Shown here piece after piece: positions 11,024 to 22,494 of a stretch of 23,084 bases of DNA (its first letter is position 1; every line of letters begins with the position of its first letter). The stretch lies in the NCBI GenBank assembly GCA_023150835.1, contig JAKLKB010000066.1:1-23084 (forward strand), written 5' to 3'. Made by a program: the position numbers and the translations under genes. The notes beneath the pieces are model-generated. The model saw only the letters and a program-made list of their open reading frames with translations, made no database searches and had not been told where the DNA came from. The DNA comes from Myxococcota bacterium. Lineage in GTDB: Bacteria > Myxococcota_C > UBA6777.

Positions 11024-11142
11024 TTATACGAGATCCGAGAGAAGTATGCACAAACGAGAACACGCGGATGCCCGATTCTTGGGCAGCCACAGGGGGCTGC
11101 CCCTACCTCTTTACGATCACGCAACGGGCGGATTTCGTATGA
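11024..11142 (+). repeat. Hairpin repeat family P, copy 2
   Basis: This 119-bp element has imperfect inverted ends, TTATACGAGATCCG (11024-11037) and CGGATTTCGTATGA (11129-11142), 12 of 14 pairing. It contains the hairpin GGGCAGCC/GGCTGCCC (11081-11088 with 11095-11102). It matches copy 1 (30-95) in inverse orientation and resembles copy 3 (18459-18512). It lies 18 bp after the threonine dehydrogenase stop. Size and inverted ends suggest a MITE-like element. Confidence 0.75.
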
Positions 11143-11156
11143 CGCATTTGGACGGA

Positions 11157-11287
11157 TGTGGTGGGGTTTCACCCCGCGCCCCGCTTCCTTAGCGCGGCTC
11201 TATGGACCCCGTATTGGCGAAGCGATCGCAGGTTTTTCAAGACAACGACTCTCTCGCTTGGGCGTTCGCGAGCATGGCTTTTTTGCC
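11157..11287 (+). repeat. Dispersed repeat family R, copy 4
   Basis: It shares with copy 1 the exact 28-bp core from AGCGCGGCTCTATGGACCCC through GTAT, then TTGGCGAAGCGATCGCAG, GTTTTTCAAGACAACGACT, CTCTCGCTTGGGCGTTCGCG and AGCATGGCTTTTTTG. It follows family P copy 2 by only 14 bp and fills the convergent gap before the aldolase stop. Confidence 0.75.
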
Positions 11288-12754: not shown

Positions 12755-14743
12755 ATGGACACAACAAGACGATTTCTTTTCATCGGCCTCTTTTTTCTCG
12801 GTGGGTGGGCCTCGCACGCGCAAGCCAATCTCACGGTTTGCGGTGTCGATCTGCGAGGAAACCCCCGTTGTCATCGCGAACTCAAACGGCTCGTCGCAGG
12901 TTGCAAAGAGCAGCCTGTGATCTGTGGTCGGTCGTACCAATACGGCCCGCTCCCCAACCTCGAAGAAGTGACGCAACGCTGCAATCTTTGGCATCGCAGC
13001 CATCGCCGAAAATGGGTGACGGGTATGTGTGGAATCCCCTTGTATTCGGCTCCACGCACCTTTTGCGGTCGTAAGGGAATGGAAGTTGCGATTAGCTGCA
13101 TCCGCAACGTTCGCGCCAAACAGCCCGAGATCCCGATGACTCGACACGATGCGCCCACTCCTACTCCTACTCTTACACCCACCCCTGCTCGCGCACCTTC
13201 ACAAATCACGCCTTCCCCGTCCTCCCATCCCAACGCACCCACCGTCGCTCCCCGTGATTCAGCTTCGGATGCTGCGCCTTCGACACACCAAGACACCCAC
13301 AACGCCCAAGAAGCCACCCCCCAAAATCCTCCGTCTTCCGCCTCCACCACACAACGCGATCCGCGCACAGGTTCCTTGGCGCAGATCTCTGCACCCTCCG
13401 CCCCTGCTTCCCAAGGGACGGGCGTTTGGCTGTGGGCCGTGTTGCTACAATTGTTGACGCTTTGCCTTGTGATCTTTTTGCTGCAACAGCGTCCTACGCC
13501 CGAAAGCGCCAAACAAGCCCGCCGATCTCTCCAAGACGACGAGGATGCTTGGGTAGACGGCAGCCACCAAGACGCCAAAGACGACCACAGCGTCGCGATA
13601 TCCGATCTTCTCCACGAAGTGCAGCGCCGTCTTGACCACTCCACCGAACAGATCGAACAGATCGTCTCTCAACAAGCCGCTGCCCCCGCACAAGTGCCGT
13701 TTGCTGCGCTCCAACGCGAAGCGGACGAGATGTTGCGTTATTACAGCGGCATTGCCCGCGTTGTCCTGCAAGATACCGCAAAAGCCCGTCCCGCCGTCTT
13801 CCAACAACGCTTGATCGAGGCCCGTGAACGCCTTCAATGGATCTTCCAAGGCCACCGCGAACACAATGTCCGTGCGCTCTCGCTCCACAACTTCCAAGAA
13901 GAAACCCTCGCCTTGATCGATGCTTTGCTCGAACGCATGGGCTATCTTGACCTGCCTTTGTTGATCCAACAACACCTCACCCAAGGCCAATTCAGCTTCC
14001 GTGAATATCTCCACCGTATCGAAGTCGATCAGGCCGAGTACATCCGACGCGCCCAATCTCCCCAAAGCTTCAAAGAAGTCCGCGAATCTTTCATGGCGCG
14101 CATCGAAAGCCTCTACCGCAACAACCTGCTCAGCCTCCAAAAACAGCCGATTCCACAACACACCATGCCCGAAGACGAACAAGCCGAACTCTACCAACAA
14201 CGCTACGTCCGCGCTTTTCTCTTGAAAGAGCTTCCCCGCCAGCTTCGCAGCCTTGCTCGTCAATCGAGTCCGGGTCGGATCGGTGCGCTCGTCGATATGC
14301 TTGTGCAATTCATCGAAGATCAAGTCCTTCAATCGGGCTTATCGATCACTTTCCCCGAAGATGCAGCACTCGAAGAAAGCATGATGGGCCGTATCGTTCG
14401 CCTCGAAAAAGCGCGCATCACCGAGGAAAGCAGCAGCGCCTCTGCCGATCTTTCTGCTGCGATGCAGCGGATGGATCAGGCTTTTGGTGCGCTTTCTCTC
14501 CAAGCGCCACCTTCTGATAGCGCATCCCACACCCTCGAACCCGGCGCGCTGCCTGAAGCACTCTCCCATCCTGTGATCGCCAACCCCGACAGCGATCCGC
14601 CCGAACTGGCGTGGGAAGCACCGCGTGGAACCTTCGGTAGCAGCGAGCTTGACGCGCTCCAAGCCAACGTCGGACATACACTCGGAACCCGCCCCAACGG
14701 CACCCATCCCACCACCAACAGCTACAACACGCTTTCAAAGTGA
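12755..14743 (+). CDS. Unrecognised bitopic membrane protein with Cys-rich ectodomain
   Basis: The family of this 662-residue protein is not recognised. Residues 1-24 are a signal peptide (ending SHAQA). Residues 29-115 contain eight cysteines, probably four disulfides, in a small periplasmic or surface domain. A Thr/Pro/Ser/Ala-rich linker spans about 128-222. One transmembrane segment (223-243, WLWAVLLQLLTLCLVIFLL) follows. The remaining 420 residues are charged, Gln/Glu/Arg-rich and strongly helical, likely partly coiled coil, and should be cytoplasmic. The layout suggests a link between an envelope sensor and a cytoplasmic scaffold, which is inference. The start has AAGGAAG upstream of ATG. 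The stop is 11 bp before direct repeat copy A. Confidence 0.75.
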   Translation: MDTTRRFLFIGLFFLGGWASHAQANLTVCGVDLRGNPRCHRELKRLVAGCKEQPVICGRSYQYGPLPNLEEVTQRCNLWHRSHRRKWVTGMCGIPLYSAPRTFCGRKGMEVAISCIRNVRAKQPEIPMTRHDAPTPTPTLTPTPARAPSQITPSPSSHPNAPTVAPRDSASDAAPSTHQDTHNAQEATPQNPPSSASTTQRDPRTGSLAQISAPSAPASQGTGVWLWAVLLQLLTLCLVIFLLQQRPTPESAKQARRSLQDDEDAWVDGSHQDAKDDHSVAISDLLHEVQRRLDHSTEQIEQIVSQQAAAPAQVPFAALQREADEMLRYYSGIARVVLQDTAKARPAVFQQRLIEARERLQWIFQGHREHNVRALSLHNFQEETLALIDALLERMGYLDLPLLIQQHLTQGQFSFREYLHRIEVDQAEYIRRAQSPQSFKEVRESFMARIESLYRNNLLSLQKQPIPQHTMPEDEQAELYQQRYVRAFLLKELPRQLRSLARQSSPGRIGALVDMLVQFIEDQVLQSGLSITFPEDAALEESMMGRIVRLEKARITEESSSASADLSAAMQRMDQAFGALSLQAPPSDSASHTLEPGALPEALSHPVIANPDSDPPELAWEAPRGTFGSSELDALQANVGHTLGTRPNGTHPTTNSYNTLSK

Positions 14744-14754
14744 ACCTCGCAAGA

Positions 14755-14865
14755 GGCTTTGGGTGTAGGCGCTTGCGTTGTGTGGGTGGGGTATGCTTCA
14801 CTTGTCCGTGGTTGCGGCACAAAAAACGAACGAGGGAGGCGCAGATGACATACCGTTGGTTGTGG
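14755..14865 (+). repeat. 111-bp direct repeat, copy A
   Basis: It matches 15769-15879 with only three mismatches (14824, 14850, 14851), at an offset of 1014 bp. It includes a leader, the ribosome-binding site GAGGGAGG and seven codons equivalent to the start of the alpha/beta-hydrolase gene. After TTGTGG, similarity stops abruptly. TATGCT at 14793 may be a -10 box but no good -35 partner is visible. Confidence 0.9.
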
Positions 14866-14901
14866 GTGCCGTTGAGAGGCACAAGGGAGGGGGGATGGTG
14901 A
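14845..14901 (+). pseudogene. Truncated duplicate of the hydrolase N-terminus
   Basis: ATG at 14845 opens 18 codons (MTYRWLWVPLRGTREGGW) ending in TGA. The first seven residues match the hydrolase start MTNRWLW with one change. The TGA (14899-14901) overlaps the start region ATGGTGA of the next gene, whose ATG is at 14895. It may persist as a translated leader that couples translation of the pair downstream. Confidence 0.6.
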
Positions 14902-15173
14902 AGAAAGACATCGCTCGATTTTTAAAAAACCATGTTTTGGGTGAGCGCGAAGCTGTTCTCGCGGATATCGAACGTTATCGGGGAAGGAGTTTGGAAGAAC
15001 TTGGACGGGAGTTGACTGTGGTGTGTCGCGTTGCTGCGGAAGTTTTGGAGGCATCGCCTGAAAAAGAGCGGATATTGGATTTTCGGGAGCCGGCTGATCA
15101 GAGCTACTTTCGTTTTCTCCGATCGATGAAAAGAAAGCAAAGGCATGAGGGGGGAGAGGATCTTGTCGCATGA
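14895..15173 (+). CDS. Small protein preceding a nucleotidyltransferase (putative antitoxin)
   Basis: The family of this 92-residue protein is not recognised. It begins MVKKDIARFLKNHVLGEREA and is mostly charged and predicted helical, with a basic RSMKRKQRH patch near the end. No helix-turn-helix is evident. AGGGAGGGG precedes the ATG. It overlaps the downstream nucleotidyltransferase gene by 29 bp, the layout of many toxin-antitoxin pairs, so an antitoxin role is inferred from context only. The pair lies between two 111-bp direct repeats. GC content looks similar to neighbours by eye. Confidence 0.7.
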   Translation: MVKKDIARFLKNHVLGEREAVLADIERYRGRSLEELGRELTVVCRVAAEVLEASPEKERILDFREPADQSYFRFLRSMKRKQRHEGGEDLVA

Positions 15174-15729
15174 GGGGCCGGATAAAGCGGCTGTAGAACT
15201 GGTTGAGGCATTGGAAGGTGCAGGGATCTCTTGCGCGATCGGTGGTGCGTTGGCGTTGGGCTTTTGGGCGGGGCCCCGAGGCACGATCGATGTTGATTTG
15301 AACGTTTTTGTCGAAGAGGCAGAATACGAAAGGTTATTGGATATCCTTTTGGAGGCCGGTTGCTCTTTTCATCGGGAAAAGTGCCTTCAAGATGCCGAAC
15401 AGGGCAACGCGATGATCCTTCAAAAGGATGGCTGGCCTATCGATTTGTTTGTCCCCTCCATCCCTTTTTATTCGGAAGCGCAACGCACCGTTCGGCGGGT
15501 GCGTTTGAGAGAGAAAGATGTGCCTGTCTTGGGACCCGAGGCTCTTTGCGTCTTCAAGCTGCTGTTTTTTCGCAGGAAGGATATCGTGGATCTCGAACGG
15601 CTGGTCGCGTTGCAGGGGCACAAGCTGGATCGCGCCTATATTCGGGGCTGGATTGTGGATATGCTCGGCGAAGAAGATCCTCGAGTAGGAGAATGGGATC
15701 GTATCCTTCGGGTACATGGGCCGCTGTGA
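15145..15729 (+). CDS. AbiEii-like nucleotidyltransferase (putative toxin)
   Basis: The 194-residue product has a nucleotidyltransferase fold signature. GGALALGFW (33-41) is followed by R45 and DVD (D49, D51) in GTIDVDLNVF. A third carboxylate lies at D100 in WPIDLFVP, and KLLFFRRKDIVDLERL (138-153) gives the distal Lys/Asp pattern. These resemble AbiEii/MenT-type toxins and related DUF6036 proteins, which transfer nucleotides onto RNA or protein. Whether it is toxic or an orphan enzyme cannot be told. The start could be ATG 15145 or TTG 15163, the latter preceded by GGGGGGAGAGG. It overlaps the small upstream gene by 29 bp. A hairpin with T-tract follows at 15741. Confidence 0.8.
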   Translation: MRGERILSHEGPDKAAVELVEALEGAGISCAIGGALALGFWAGPRGTIDVDLNVFVEEAEYERLLDILLEAGCSFHREKCLQDAEQGNAMILQKDGWPIDLFVPSIPFYSEAQRTVRRVRLREKDVPVLGPEALCVFKLLFFRRKDIVDLERLVALQGHKLDRAYIRGWIVDMLGEEDPRVGEWDRILRVHGPL

Positions 15730-15740
15730 TTGATCGGGCG

Positions 15741-15764
15741 CAAACAACCGTCAAAGGTTTTTTG
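15741..15764 (+). terminator. Probable intrinsic terminator after the nucleotidyltransferase
   Basis: CAAACAACC pairs with GGTTTTTTG around a 6-base loop with one mismatch, and the 3' arm is T-rich. It lies 12 bp past the stop and just before direct repeat copy B, so it would isolate the inserted pair from the hydrolase gene. Confidence 0.5.
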
Positions 15765-15768
15765 TGGG

Positions 15769-15879
15769 GGCTTTGGGTGTAGGCGCTTGCGTTGTGTGGG
15801 TGGGGTATGCTTCACTTGTCCGTGGTTGCGGCACAAAGAACGAACGAGGGAGGCGCAGATGACGAACCGTTGGTTGTGG
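15769..15879 (+). repeat. 111-bp direct repeat, copy B
   Basis: This is the intact counterpart of 14755-14865. It holds the leader, the GAGGGAGG ribosome-binding site and first seven codons of the alpha/beta-hydrolase gene, which continues normally beyond it. It is therefore likely the original location of the sequence. Confidence 0.9.
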
Positions 15880-18603: not shown

Positions 18604-21600
18604 CTATCTTTGTTTCAAACAGCCACGAAGGAGTTCAAGGGCGGCAGAGCGTTTTTGGCGGGAGAGGTATTTTTTGGCGTCGCGAAGTTCATCAAGGAGA
18701 TCTTCGTCGGCAGGGGTTGCTTGGCTTTGAAGGAGGATGGCTTGGTCGAGCCAAGCATTCAGATCGGGTTCGGAAGCACTTTCGATGTCGATGTAGGGGA
18801 TTTGGAGCCCGTTGTGAAAGGTGAGAGAGTTGCTGCGGGGTGATGCGCTTGCGAGGTTGTCCGAATGGAAAAGAGGTTGAAGTTCGGACAGTAGGCTGCT
18901 TTGTCTTTCCTCGCTGTTGGGGTGGACGGCAGAAACGAGTTGCTTTAGAAGCACTTGGCTGTCTTGCCAGTCGCGCTGCGATTTGACTGCGAGCGTGCTA
19001 CAGAGAGCTTTTAGAGCGGCCTCTGCTTCGGCGTACTGGCTGATCGAAGCCCAACAAGAAAGCAGGATTTCCATTTGTTCGGAGGCTTTGTTGGGTAAGG
19101 GATCGTCGAGCAGCTTTTTCCATTGCTTTTCCAAGTCCCCTTCGATGAGGTTTTTTGGGTAGGGCGGCTTGGCAGGTTTGTTTTGGTGCCAGAGCTTGAT
19201 GGCGGTGGTCTTGCGATCTTTTTCTGCCAACCCCCAATACGGGTCCGAGCGGCTCCACAGAAGGCTCGGAAAGAGAAGGTGGAGATCTTCGATGTCGCGC
19301 CGCACGTAACGCTCCTCAAGTCCTTTAAAAAAAAGAGAAAAGGCTTCGTGGGGTTTTGCGTTTGCCTGATTCCAAAAATCTTCTATCGATTCCAGATCAA
19401 GGGCGTAAAGATCCGATGGTGCGCGGTTTTCTGGAGAGGATTTGGGGTTTTTCAGATCGGGCAAGAACCGACCAACAAAAGGCGACAAGAGCTGTTTGGT
19501 TGTATCAAGCCAGCCCCTCCATGCCTGAAGGCTAAAACCTTCTCGAAGCAACTCTTTGATCTGATCTTGCGTTTCTTTTTTTTGAGCGGAGGAGGCCTTG
19601 TCGAGAAAATCAGCCACGCTGCGTTCGGAGGGAAACTTCCTTTGGAGTTCTAATACTTTTGGGCTAGGTTTCGTGCCGAAAGAGAAGTGAAGCCACTCGT
19701 GAAGACCTCTGCGCCACCATTTGTCGATATCGTGAGAAAGACTGAACCATCCCCCAAGTTGATAAAAAGAAGAAAGGACGCGCTTGCACAGGAGGCGGAA
19801 GTATCGGAAACAAGTTTCGATGGGGGCTTTTGTGCCGATGGCCAGTTGGGCCGCCATAAAAGGATCGGACGTGGAGAGGCTCTCTAAAAAGAGTTCGTTT
19901 TCTTTTTTACCTTCGTTGGTTTCGGCGCGCTCTTTGAGGCAGTTCACAGCGTTTTCCACATCTTTTGTGCGAACGAGGGAATCGAGGAGTCCGATGGCTT
20001 GGTTCTGATCGTTACGCAAAAAGATCCCGAAAGAAAAGACGGGTTCTGTATTACGCGCTTCCATCGCGATCTCTTTGATCCGAGCTTGTTGTTGTGAGGA
20101 TTCGGCTAATTTTACAGCACTTTGCCAGCCTTTCAGCGACTTGATTTGGCGGTAGCTCTCAACGGCTTCGTAAGCGTCGCTTTTGTCGCTGGTGGACTCC
20201 CAAAGCTTCTTCCATGTGTCCGCTTTTTTTTCGGGATCTGCGATCTGACGGGCGTCTTCACGGGCTTGGCGGATGGCTTCTTCGCGCTTTGTGGGCAGAT
20301 CTGTCGACGTCGCAGATTCGATCCAACAATCGGCGCTTGCTGCGCGATCTCCGAGTTGGCGGTAGTGGTAACAGGCGTTCTCGTAGGACTTCTCTTCTCG
20401 ATAAAAATCCGCCGCAGAACGTCTTGCTGTGATGATTCCGACTTCGTTTTTGGCCTCGCGGAAAGCGATGAGAGCTTCGTTTAACCAGCGTTCTTCCTTG
20501 GTGATAAAAAACTCTTGGAGATAAGAGTCCCCCGATCGGGTCAAGGCCGATTGGTTGACACGAGTACGAGCAAACTCCGGCAACCATCGGCGTAAAAGCT
20601 CTTGGACTCGGTTCGGATCGCGAGGTCCCTTTAGGCTTTTCCAGCCAGCCTGCTGCAAGAAATCCATCTGTTCGGGAGTGAGGTACAACATCAATAACCC
20701 CGAAGAGCGTGTGATGCCTGTGTACCACTGGCTCAATAGATCTTTTTCAACCGCATTCGGATTCGAAACATTCAGCGAGATCGGCATCCCAAGGATGATC
20801 ACGCGAGAGAATTCCAATCCTTTGCAACTTAACAAAGGCAAGACAGTGACGGATTTCTGCACTAATTCGATGTCGAGTCGCTCTTCTGTTCCAGATATCA
20901 CAACGGAACGTGTGTCGCTTGCATCAAGCTTGCCGGCCTGCGCTTCCAAAAAACATTGTAGCTCGCGCTTGAACAGTTCAGGTGATCCAATCAACACAAC
21001 GGGTATGCGTTCTTCGTCGGAGAGCGCCATGATCTCGTCTTCGACTTGGCTTGGGAGGGTCTGTTTGGGATCGATCACGTTCGCCAATATCCGCTCGCGG
21101 GTTTGAGGGTCTTTGACTTGGGTGGAGACGATCTCTTGCATCATGGTTTGGGCAAATAGAGCCACTTCTTCGGTCGTGCGGTAGTTATTGAGCAAAAGGA
21201 AGCATGGGTGGGGGCCGCTTTGGATTTGGGCGTCTTTGAAGGAGCGGAAGGCAGGAAGGGCAAATGGTTGGCTGGAGTGTAGGGTGAGGGCAATTTTGTC
21301 TACGATATCAAAGATATCCTCCCATCTGAATCCTGTGGGGGTGATCATCTGGTTGAAATCACCAAAGAAAAACAAGCGGCTACGGTGATTGCGCGGCAAA
21401 TGAAACCAACACCGAACCAACAATTGGATTTCTGTTTCGCACAGATCTTGGGACTCGTCGATCATGAGGATCGGGTACGCTAAAGTCGAACCGAGGTTTT
21501 CGAAGAAGTGCGTACCACGTAAGCCGTAGAGAGGGACGTTCTCCTTCAGAAAATTACGGAGATTTCTCCATTCTTCGGTTTTACACCGTTGGCCTCGGAG

Positions 21601-22494
21601 CATCTGCTCAACGGGATCGAGCAGTGGGCGATACAAGCGCAAGACAGGGATATCGGTGTAGGAGGTGAGCGCTCGTTTGAGCCATCGCAAGGCTTCTTGC
21701 AGAGAGGGATTTTTTTTGAGCGCCTCAAAAAGTTTTTCAGCATCCATCTCAAGGATGATCTGGTAGTGTTTCTCCTCTTCGAGCAAACTTTTGAGCAAAC
21801 GATGCCCCAACAAACCCCGATCAAGCCGCCCTGCAAGTTTTTTTTGGTAGGCATGGTGCAGCATGGCGATCTCGCTGAGTTTTTGGGACTCTCCTTGCGT
21901 GATGCGAAGATCACCACACCTACTTGCGATCTCAATGTCTTTTTGCGTCCAAGAGCGCTGCGTGCTTTGGAAAAAAGTGGTGATGTAGACAAAGGCTTGT
22001 TCGGGTGGGAGTCGGACCCCTCTTCGGGCACAAAGTCCCCGTAGGATCTCGACGGATTCCTCGTCTGTGCAGACGAGTTTGCGATCTTCTGGAGGAAGCA
22101 GAACGCGGCAGAACTCTGTGAAGGTCATCATATTGGCGCGGCTTTCGGCCAATTGATTCACCGTGCTGCAAAGATCTGCGTGTGGGCTTTGGGTAAGGCT
22201 TTCTCTTAGGCGCTGAGAGGAAGAGTTGAGCAACTCGAGGTTGTACGTCACCAGTAAAAGCGATATCCGTTCGTTTCCAAGGAGCATCCCCGCATGGTCT
22301 TCAAGGAACTCACGCAAAACGCTCAAAGCAACGGTTGTTTTTCCTGAACCTGCAACGCCCTGTACCAAGATAACGGGAGGGAACGGAGACTGAGATGTCG
22401 CCCCAACCACCGCTTGGTTGAGTACATGGCGCTGCTCCTGTTCGAGTTTGCCACGATCCGGCAAGCCGAGAATATAGCTGGAGTTTGTGGACAT
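18604..22494 (-). CDS. UvrD-like SF1 helicase with long helical C-terminal region
   Basis: The 1296-residue product has all main superfamily 1 motifs. These are Walker A GVAGSGKTT (46-54), Ia LLVTYNLELL (80-89), II LMIDESQD (343-350), III FFGDFNQ (376-382), IV NNYRTTEEV (436-444), V LSCKGLEF (555-562) and VI YTGITRSSGLLMLYL (591-605). An insertion of about 250 residues separates Ia and II. Residues about 660-830 show helical repeat patterns like TPR (for example FREAKNEVGIITARRSAADF), and the last 450 residues have no recognised domain. No nuclease motif was seen. The start has AAGGAGT before ATG. It stands alone on the minus strand, 85 bp after a cytochrome c gene. A DNA-repair, RNA-processing or defence role is possible; none is proven. 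Confidence 0.88.
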   Translation of the reverse strand: MSTNSSYILGLPDRGKLEQEQRHVLNQAVVGATSQSPFPPVILVQGVAGSGKTTVALSVLREFLEDHAGMLLGNERISLLLVTYNLELLNSSSQRLRESLTQSPHADLCSTVNQLAESRANMMTFTEFCRVLLPPEDRKLVCTDEESVEILRGLCARRGVRLPPEQAFVYITTFFQSTQRSWTQKDIEIASRCGDLRITQGESQKLSEIAMLHHAYQKKLAGRLDRGLLGHRLLKSLLEEEKHYQIILEMDAEKLFEALKKNPSLQEALRWLKRALTSYTDIPVLRLYRPLLDPVEQMLRGQRCKTEEWRNLRNFLKENVPLYGLRGTHFFENLGSTLAYPILMIDESQDLCETEIQLLVRCWFHLPRNHRSRLFFFGDFNQMITPTGFRWEDIFDIVDKIALTLHSSQPFALPAFRSFKDAQIQSGPHPCFLLLNNYRTTEEVALFAQTMMQEIVSTQVKDPQTRERILANVIDPKQTLPSQVEDEIMALSDEERIPVVLIGSPELFKRELQCFLEAQAGKLDASDTRSVVISGTEERLDIELVQKSVTVLPLLSCKGLEFSRVIILGMPISLNVSNPNAVEKDLLSQWYTGITRSSGLLMLYLTPEQMDFLQQAGWKSLKGPRDPNRVQELLRRWLPEFARTRVNQSALTRSGDSYLQEFFITKEERWLNEALIAFREAKNEVGIITARRSAADFYREEKSYENACYHYRQLGDRAASADCWIESATSTDLPTKREEAIRQAREDARQIADPEKKADTWKKLWESTSDKSDAYEAVESYRQIKSLKGWQSAVKLAESSQQQARIKEIAMEARNTEPVFSFGIFLRNDQNQAIGLLDSLVRTKDVENAVNCLKERAETNEGKKENELFLESLSTSDPFMAAQLAIGTKAPIETCFRYFRLLCKRVLSSFYQLGGWFSLSHDIDKWWRRGLHEWLHFSFGTKPSPKVLELQRKFPSERSVADFLDKASSAQKKETQDQIKELLREGFSLQAWRGWLDTTKQLLSPFVGRFLPDLKNPKSSPENRAPSDLYALDLESIEDFWNQANAKPHEAFSLFFKGLEERYVRRDIEDLHLLFPSLLWSRSDPYWGLAEKDRKTTAIKLWHQNKPAKPPYPKNLIEGDLEKQWKKLLDDPLPNKASEQMEILLSCWASISQYAEAEAALKALCSTLAVKSQRDWQDSQVLLKQLVSAVHPNSEERQSSLLSELQPLFHSDNLASASPRSNSLTFHNGLQIPYIDIESASEPDLNAWLDQAILLQSQATPADEDLLDELRDAKKYLSRQKRSAALELLRGCLKQR

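Follow-up and report, generated by a model that had tools for sequence, protein, structure and literature searches.

Probable insertion of a MenAT1-like toxin-antitoxin gene pair into a hydrolase leader, with duplication of about 111 bp of the target, in a Myxococcota genome

The window analysed here, a stretch of 23,084 nucleotides from a Myxococcota genome assembly (G000), contains a two-gene operon resembling MenAT1 of Mycobacterium tuberculosis which, with a probability of about 0.7, was captured at the leader of a hydrolase gene after the lineage had split from the congeneric genome G001, with some 111 bp of the target being duplicated and one copy placed on each side of the operon. The way in which small toxin-antitoxin modules without a transposase enter chromosomes is poorly understood. 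In this regard, the locus represents a toxin-antitoxin insertion for which a close relative possesses an empty site with a single leader, and it connects such modules to a mode of insertion that has been described for restriction-modification systems. The features of the locus are collected in Table 1.

Table 1. Coordinates of the gene pair, its flanking repeats and the neighbouring genes within the window.
Feature	Position	Strand	Remarks
Upstream host gene, 662 aa	12755..14743	+	No Pfam family above cut-off; G001 ortholog 94% identical, same position
Repeat copy 1, 111 bp	14755..14865	+	Hydrolase leader, ribosome-binding site and first 7 codons; now 5' of the gene pair
Truncated hydrolase start frame, 18 codons	14845..14901	+	Codon 19 is a stop (14899-14901), shortly after the small gene begins
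Inserted segment (best reading), 903 bp	14866..15768	+	Unique in surveyed host DNA; absent from G001
Small helical protein, 92 aa, putative antitoxin	14895..15173	+	Family conserved upstream of the nucleotidyltransferase in Myxococcota, Deltaproteobacteria and Planctomycetota MAGs
AbiEii-type nucleotidyltransferase, 194 aa, putative toxin	15145..15729	+	Best structural match MenT1
Repeat copy 2, 111 bp	15769..15879	+	Own leader of the intact hydrolase, plus its first seven codons
Intact hydrolase gene, 365 aa	15859..16956	+	Alpha/beta hydrolase with EF-hand motifs; G001 protein 98% identical

The initial annotation had described near-identical 111-bp repeats around the pair, each carrying the leader, ribosome-binding site and first codons of the hydrolase, and this description was borne out. 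The two copies are identical at 108 of 111 positions (97%), lie 1014 nt apart, differ at positions 14824, 14850 and 14851 (copy 1 coordinates) and have 69 nt as their longest common exact run; both include the first seven codons, the hydrolase ATG being located at 15859 in copy 2 and its counterpart in the same start region of copy 1 at 14845. Comparison of the two flanks by blastn returned an E value of ~1e-50 and 187 bits, and a search of the whole 7.56-Mb host genome revealed no further copy of the 111-bp sequence. It is unlikely that the repeats arose as a k-mer assembly artefact, because their longest exact run is 69 nt and the genes on either side stand in the same order in another genome. 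Past the end of the repeat, the hydrolase frame of copy 1 enters other sequence before it stops. As had also been proposed, the hydrolase itself was left intact, its gene being complete and having copy 2 as its own leader. The motif TTGTGGG, spotted by eye in G/T-rich sequence, occurs at both junctions (14860-14866 and 15762-15768) and may represent microhomology. The repeat search of the window reported no terminal inverted repeats of at least 25 nt, and no recombinase gene is present within the inserted segment.

The genes of the pair overlap and constitute, as judged from sequence comparison, a conserved two-gene operon. A scan of the genome collection retrieved 26 relatives of the nucleotidyltransferase, 37-63% identical in their best segment, from MAGs labelled Myxococcales, Deltaproteobacteria, Planctomycetota and the like, and the same kind of small gene was found immediately upstream in the 23 loci examined, where open frames were read by eye. 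No close relatives of the nucleotidyltransferase were detected in viral contigs or plasmids, and the pair matched no named NCBIfam or PADLOC family and gave no informative PHROGs match. The small protein has no Pfam match, and its 18 relatives show isolated weak matches, none of which recurs.

With respect to function, the initial annotation had regarded the pair as a toxin-antitoxin-like module with an AbiEii-like nucleotidyltransferase, a view which structural comparison supports and sharpens: by fold and layout the pair is probably a MenAT1-like toxin-antitoxin module, since the best structural match of the nucleotidyltransferase is the M. tuberculosis toxin MenT1. An AlphaFold2 model of the protein (pLDDT 93.4) was searched with Foldseek, and the top five matches were all MenT1, with E values down to 3.4e-10 and TM scores of 0.71-0.74 for the best (8an5, 8an4, 8rr5). 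Similarly, a profile built on 18 nucleotidyltransferases matches MenT1 (8an4, E 6.5e-6), the GG, T-x-D-x-D and K (lysine) regions lining up with those of MenT1, and T47, D49, D51, K138, D146 and D149 are invariant across the 18 homologues. MenAT1 consists of a 68-aa antitoxin without a DNA-binding domain and a nucleotidyltransferase toxin that adds CMP to tRNA 3' ends (PMC10435456), and MenT1 activity requires T39 and D41 (PMC11375011). These two residues correspond to T47 and D49 of the window protein; among the active-site residues T39, D41, K137 and D152 of MenT1, the T, D and K are aligned, and the counterpart of D152 among the aspartates is ambiguous.

Like MenAT1 (Rv0078B-Rv0078A), the window pair places a small putative antitoxin gene beside a gene for an AbiEii-type nucleotidyltransferase of ~195 aa with the same predicted fold and active-site layout; the two systems differ in that the structurally aligned nucleotidyltransferases are only ~22-24% identical and the small partner has no detectable sequence or fold match to MenA1. 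The small protein is predicted to be helical, without a recognised DNA-binding domain in its model, and would act as the antitoxin that keeps a tRNA-modifying nucleotidyltransferase toxin in check. The AbiE systems (AbiEi/AbiEii) belong to the same nucleotidyltransferase superfamily through AbiEii. Unlike them, the window pair has no AbiEi winged-helix antitoxin, and its nucleotidyltransferase falls below the cut-off of the AbiEii family PF08843 (15.6 vs 22.5 bits), which only 1 of 18 family members matches at E <= 0.01. A different function, in which the pair is not a toxin-antitoxin module and the substrate of the nucleotidyltransferase is an antibiotic or another small molecule, appears unlikely: Pfam matches to aminoglycoside adenylyltransferase are sub-threshold and ANT(2'')-Ia has a lower rank in the fold search, MenT1 being clearly the best match by both structure and profile, and the small helical partner is conserved upstream across phyla.

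The argument for an insertion depends on comparison with G001, the closest genome, which belongs to the same genus, has flanks ~93% identical to those of the window and is the sole congeneric genome for comparison. An empty site with a single repeat between the gene at 12755 and the hydrolase, which the initial annotation had proposed to look for, is present there: in G001:C474 the upstream gene, one leader and the hydrolase follow each other as in the window, the pair is missing, and neither of its proteins has a match anywhere in this 86% complete assembly. This site supports the proposed insertion with duplication of the host leader. Each window copy differs from the G001 leader at 6 or 7 positions and by a 3-bp indel; four of the substitutions and the 3-bp insertion are common to both window copies, and of the three differences between the copies, two seem to have arisen in copy 2 and the third in copy 1. 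Because the window copies are closer to each other than either is to G001, these sequences are best read as an insertion in the window lineage; the event could look younger than it is if gene conversion has acted between the copies.

With G001 as the only congener to compare, and the hydrolase standing in this context in no outgroup, the polarity of the event rests on these shared differences and on a spacer described below; in G003, the hydrolase is 47% identical and the homologue of the upstream gene lies on a different contig. It has to be considered that the leader was first tandemly duplicated, an ordinary small event, and that the pair entered later between the copies. The outcome would look identical, and a unit with a Phd-VapC pair elsewhere in the host genome (G000:C135, see below) looks like a decayed tandem duplication. 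On the other hand, two independent events would be required at one place and no strain with a tandem leader is known, G001 being the one genome compared, so that we regard this course as rather improbable.

Even less probable is that the pair and both repeats are ancestral in the genus and that G001 lost the pair by recombination between the repeats, although repeats this similar would permit such a loss and only two congeners are known. In G001, ~25 nt separate the terminator-like hairpin of the upstream gene from the leader; these are missing left of copy 1 and resemble the left flank of copy 2, where they are partly retained (ttttttgtggggg). A product of simple recombination would keep the left junction of copy 1 (agagg|ctttggg), and G001, with its copy-2-like spacer before the leader, is therefore not such a product of the window arrangement; judged from the sequences, a gain in the window lineage fits the ~25-nt spacer better than a loss in G001. 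Furthermore, the pair is absent from G001, G003 and G004, and the pair of G002 occupies another locus without such repeats. At that locus (L052, G002:C314), in a family-level relative, the pair has as neighbours a probable tRNA gene and an array of 20-nt tandem repeats.

It could also be asked whether such a duplication generally accompanies the pair. For 29 other pairs the flanks were viewed, 23 from the collection scan and 6 from whole-genome searches; one (L078) was left out for its short upstream sequence, and comparable flanking repeats were found in 0 of the remaining 28, all at or below 36.5 bits vs 187 bits for the window, with several short flanks making the negatives partial. Since none of these 28 pairs has a comparable flanking duplication, the duplication belongs to the history of this locus and is no fixed property of the pair. 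The initial annotation had suggested searching for the pair with different duplicated flanks, of which these pairs provide no example, and had named a wide occurrence of the pair without flanking duplications as evidence against its proposal; such an occurrence is what the 28 other pairs display. A paralogue of the nucleotidyltransferase (G000:C195), situated between direct repeats at 13287-13364 and 15044-15121, was rejected as a second case because the repeats around it are members of an intergenic family that is dispersed in dozens of copies. Mobilisation of a non-autonomous element by a site-specific recombinase in trans, with the host sequence on both sides serving as attL and attR attachment sites, is very improbable given a segment without a recombinase gene or reported terminal inverted repeats of at least 25 nt, a repeat sequence found nowhere else in the genome and the 0 of 28 other pairs with comparable repeats.

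For the preferred reading, namely capture of the operon at the hydrolase leader with target duplication, there is a known precedent. Insertion with long target duplication was described for restriction-modification genes, first in Helicobacter pylori (summarised in PMC1643837, which cites Nobusato et al. 2000 for it, and in PMC3874152 and PMC3031569), and the duplications in these systems are long and variable, of the order of 100 bp (PMC3874152, PMC3031569, PMC1643837). The window shares with these cases a selfish module between direct repeats of ~100 bp of host target, a single copy in a related genome and the lack of a transposase. It differs from them in its module, a MenAT1-like pair, in its host, whose lineage is related to MAGs labelled Myxococcales, and in its repeat, which includes the downstream gene's leader and start codons. 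The pair thus does not belong to the restriction-modification genes for which the phenomenon was originally described, and the resemblance concerns the mode of insertion. The statement in the initial annotation that this mode of acquisition was not recognised for AbiE-like modules holds in part: the mode is known for restriction-modification systems, and a literature search with partial coverage found no description of long target duplication for AbiE-like or other toxin-antitoxin pairs. The mechanism is therefore of a known kind in a new setting, the new element being that a toxin-antitoxin module is involved and that an empty site is available for it. How the insertion may have proceeded physically can be outlined as follows.

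A MenAT1-like operon would have entered the hydrolase leader in the lineage of the window species, after its split from G001, and ~111 bp of the target would have been duplicated, leaving one copy on each side. The DNA may have been joined without a dedicated transposase, either by integration of a small circle or by staggered-break repair or template switching. Only 29 nt separate the end of copy 1 from the start codon of the small gene, so that hardly any sequence upstream of the pair is its own and its use of the duplicated leader for expression is plausible, and the pair would then be transcribed from this leader; no canonical sigma-70 promoter was found in it. Translation of the pair may be assisted by the 18-codon hydrolase remnant, for which translational coupling is possible. 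As the duplication brings the leader and start codons of the neighbour, it suggests how a captured operon could be expressed at once while leaving the neighbour unharmed. The direct repeats would in turn permit exact loss or tandem amplification of the module through homologous recombination.

Long direct repeats were also surveyed elsewhere in the host genome, covering 2.125 Mb (28%) and low-copy direct repeats with 0.4-6 kb spacing, of which those of at least 50 bp and at least 89% identity were kept and those inside paralogous or repeat-bearing genes were excluded. With a filter settled while viewing the data and exclusions judged by eye, four single-locus repeats with the look of scars from insertion or duplication were left, and all four, the window included, flank toxin-antitoxin or restriction-modification modules. 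In G000:C48 (L154, 18312-19677), repeats of 68 bp and 90% identity surround an HTH_17 + PIN_3 toxin-antitoxin pair upstream of a metG-like gene (read by eye), the right copy lying within the metG-like leader; these repeats and the pair are also present in G001 (L204, G001:C241). In G000:C135 (L219, 8059-9056), repeats of 76 bp and 93% identity surround a Phd-VapC pair and duplicate the preceding gene's 3' end; a second phd start, truncated, comes next, and the unit looks like a decayed tandem duplication; the locus was not found in G001 (86% complete assembly). The fourth case, G000:C30/C203 (L124, L092), a contig join that rests on an 87-bp end overlap, has 96% identical repeats (182/187 bp matched, ~230 bp in all) which enclose an N6_N4 methyltransferase gene and a presumed restriction gene; a neighbour of 384 aa had no library match, and G001 (L140, G001:C508) has the same restriction-modification-like genes with the repeat on one side only. 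The survey repeats L179, L183, L178, L165, L191 and L128 were set aside as lying inside paralogous or repeat-bearing or tRNA genes, and L159 as ambiguous, since it lies at a contig end and resembles a tandem paralogue's 3' end.

The entire host genome yielded only 7 PF01850 PIN genes and 3 PF02604 genes, and toxin-antitoxin type modules thus look sparse in it. The association of long repeats with addiction-type modules in 28% of the genome is a lead and not a statistic; it could be tested by a simple repeat survey in other genomes. Of the four loci, only the window has an empty site and is demonstrated as an insertion. It may tentatively be proposed, as a doubtful extension of these observations, that toxin-antitoxin and restriction-modification modules of unrelated families are gained and kept in this lineage by a common process duplicating ~70-230 bp of host target, whereby repeats would mark selfish modules genome-wide, a module would take over the leader of its neighbour and clean loss would be possible.

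Several other features of the window deserve mention. On the minus strand, 18604-22494 encodes a 1296-aa UvrD-like/AAA ATPase protein with weak similarity to GajB (Gabija), possibly a defence gene. Positions 32-96 and 11076-11140 form a pair of 65-nt inverted repeats, 92% complementary and 11 kb apart. Finally, positions 728-821 and 11191-11284, together with many survey loci, are members of an intergenic repeat family of ~100-130 bp that is dispersed in the host genome, where 0.78 Mb hold dozens of copies, and a dispersed repeat recurs in G001 as well.
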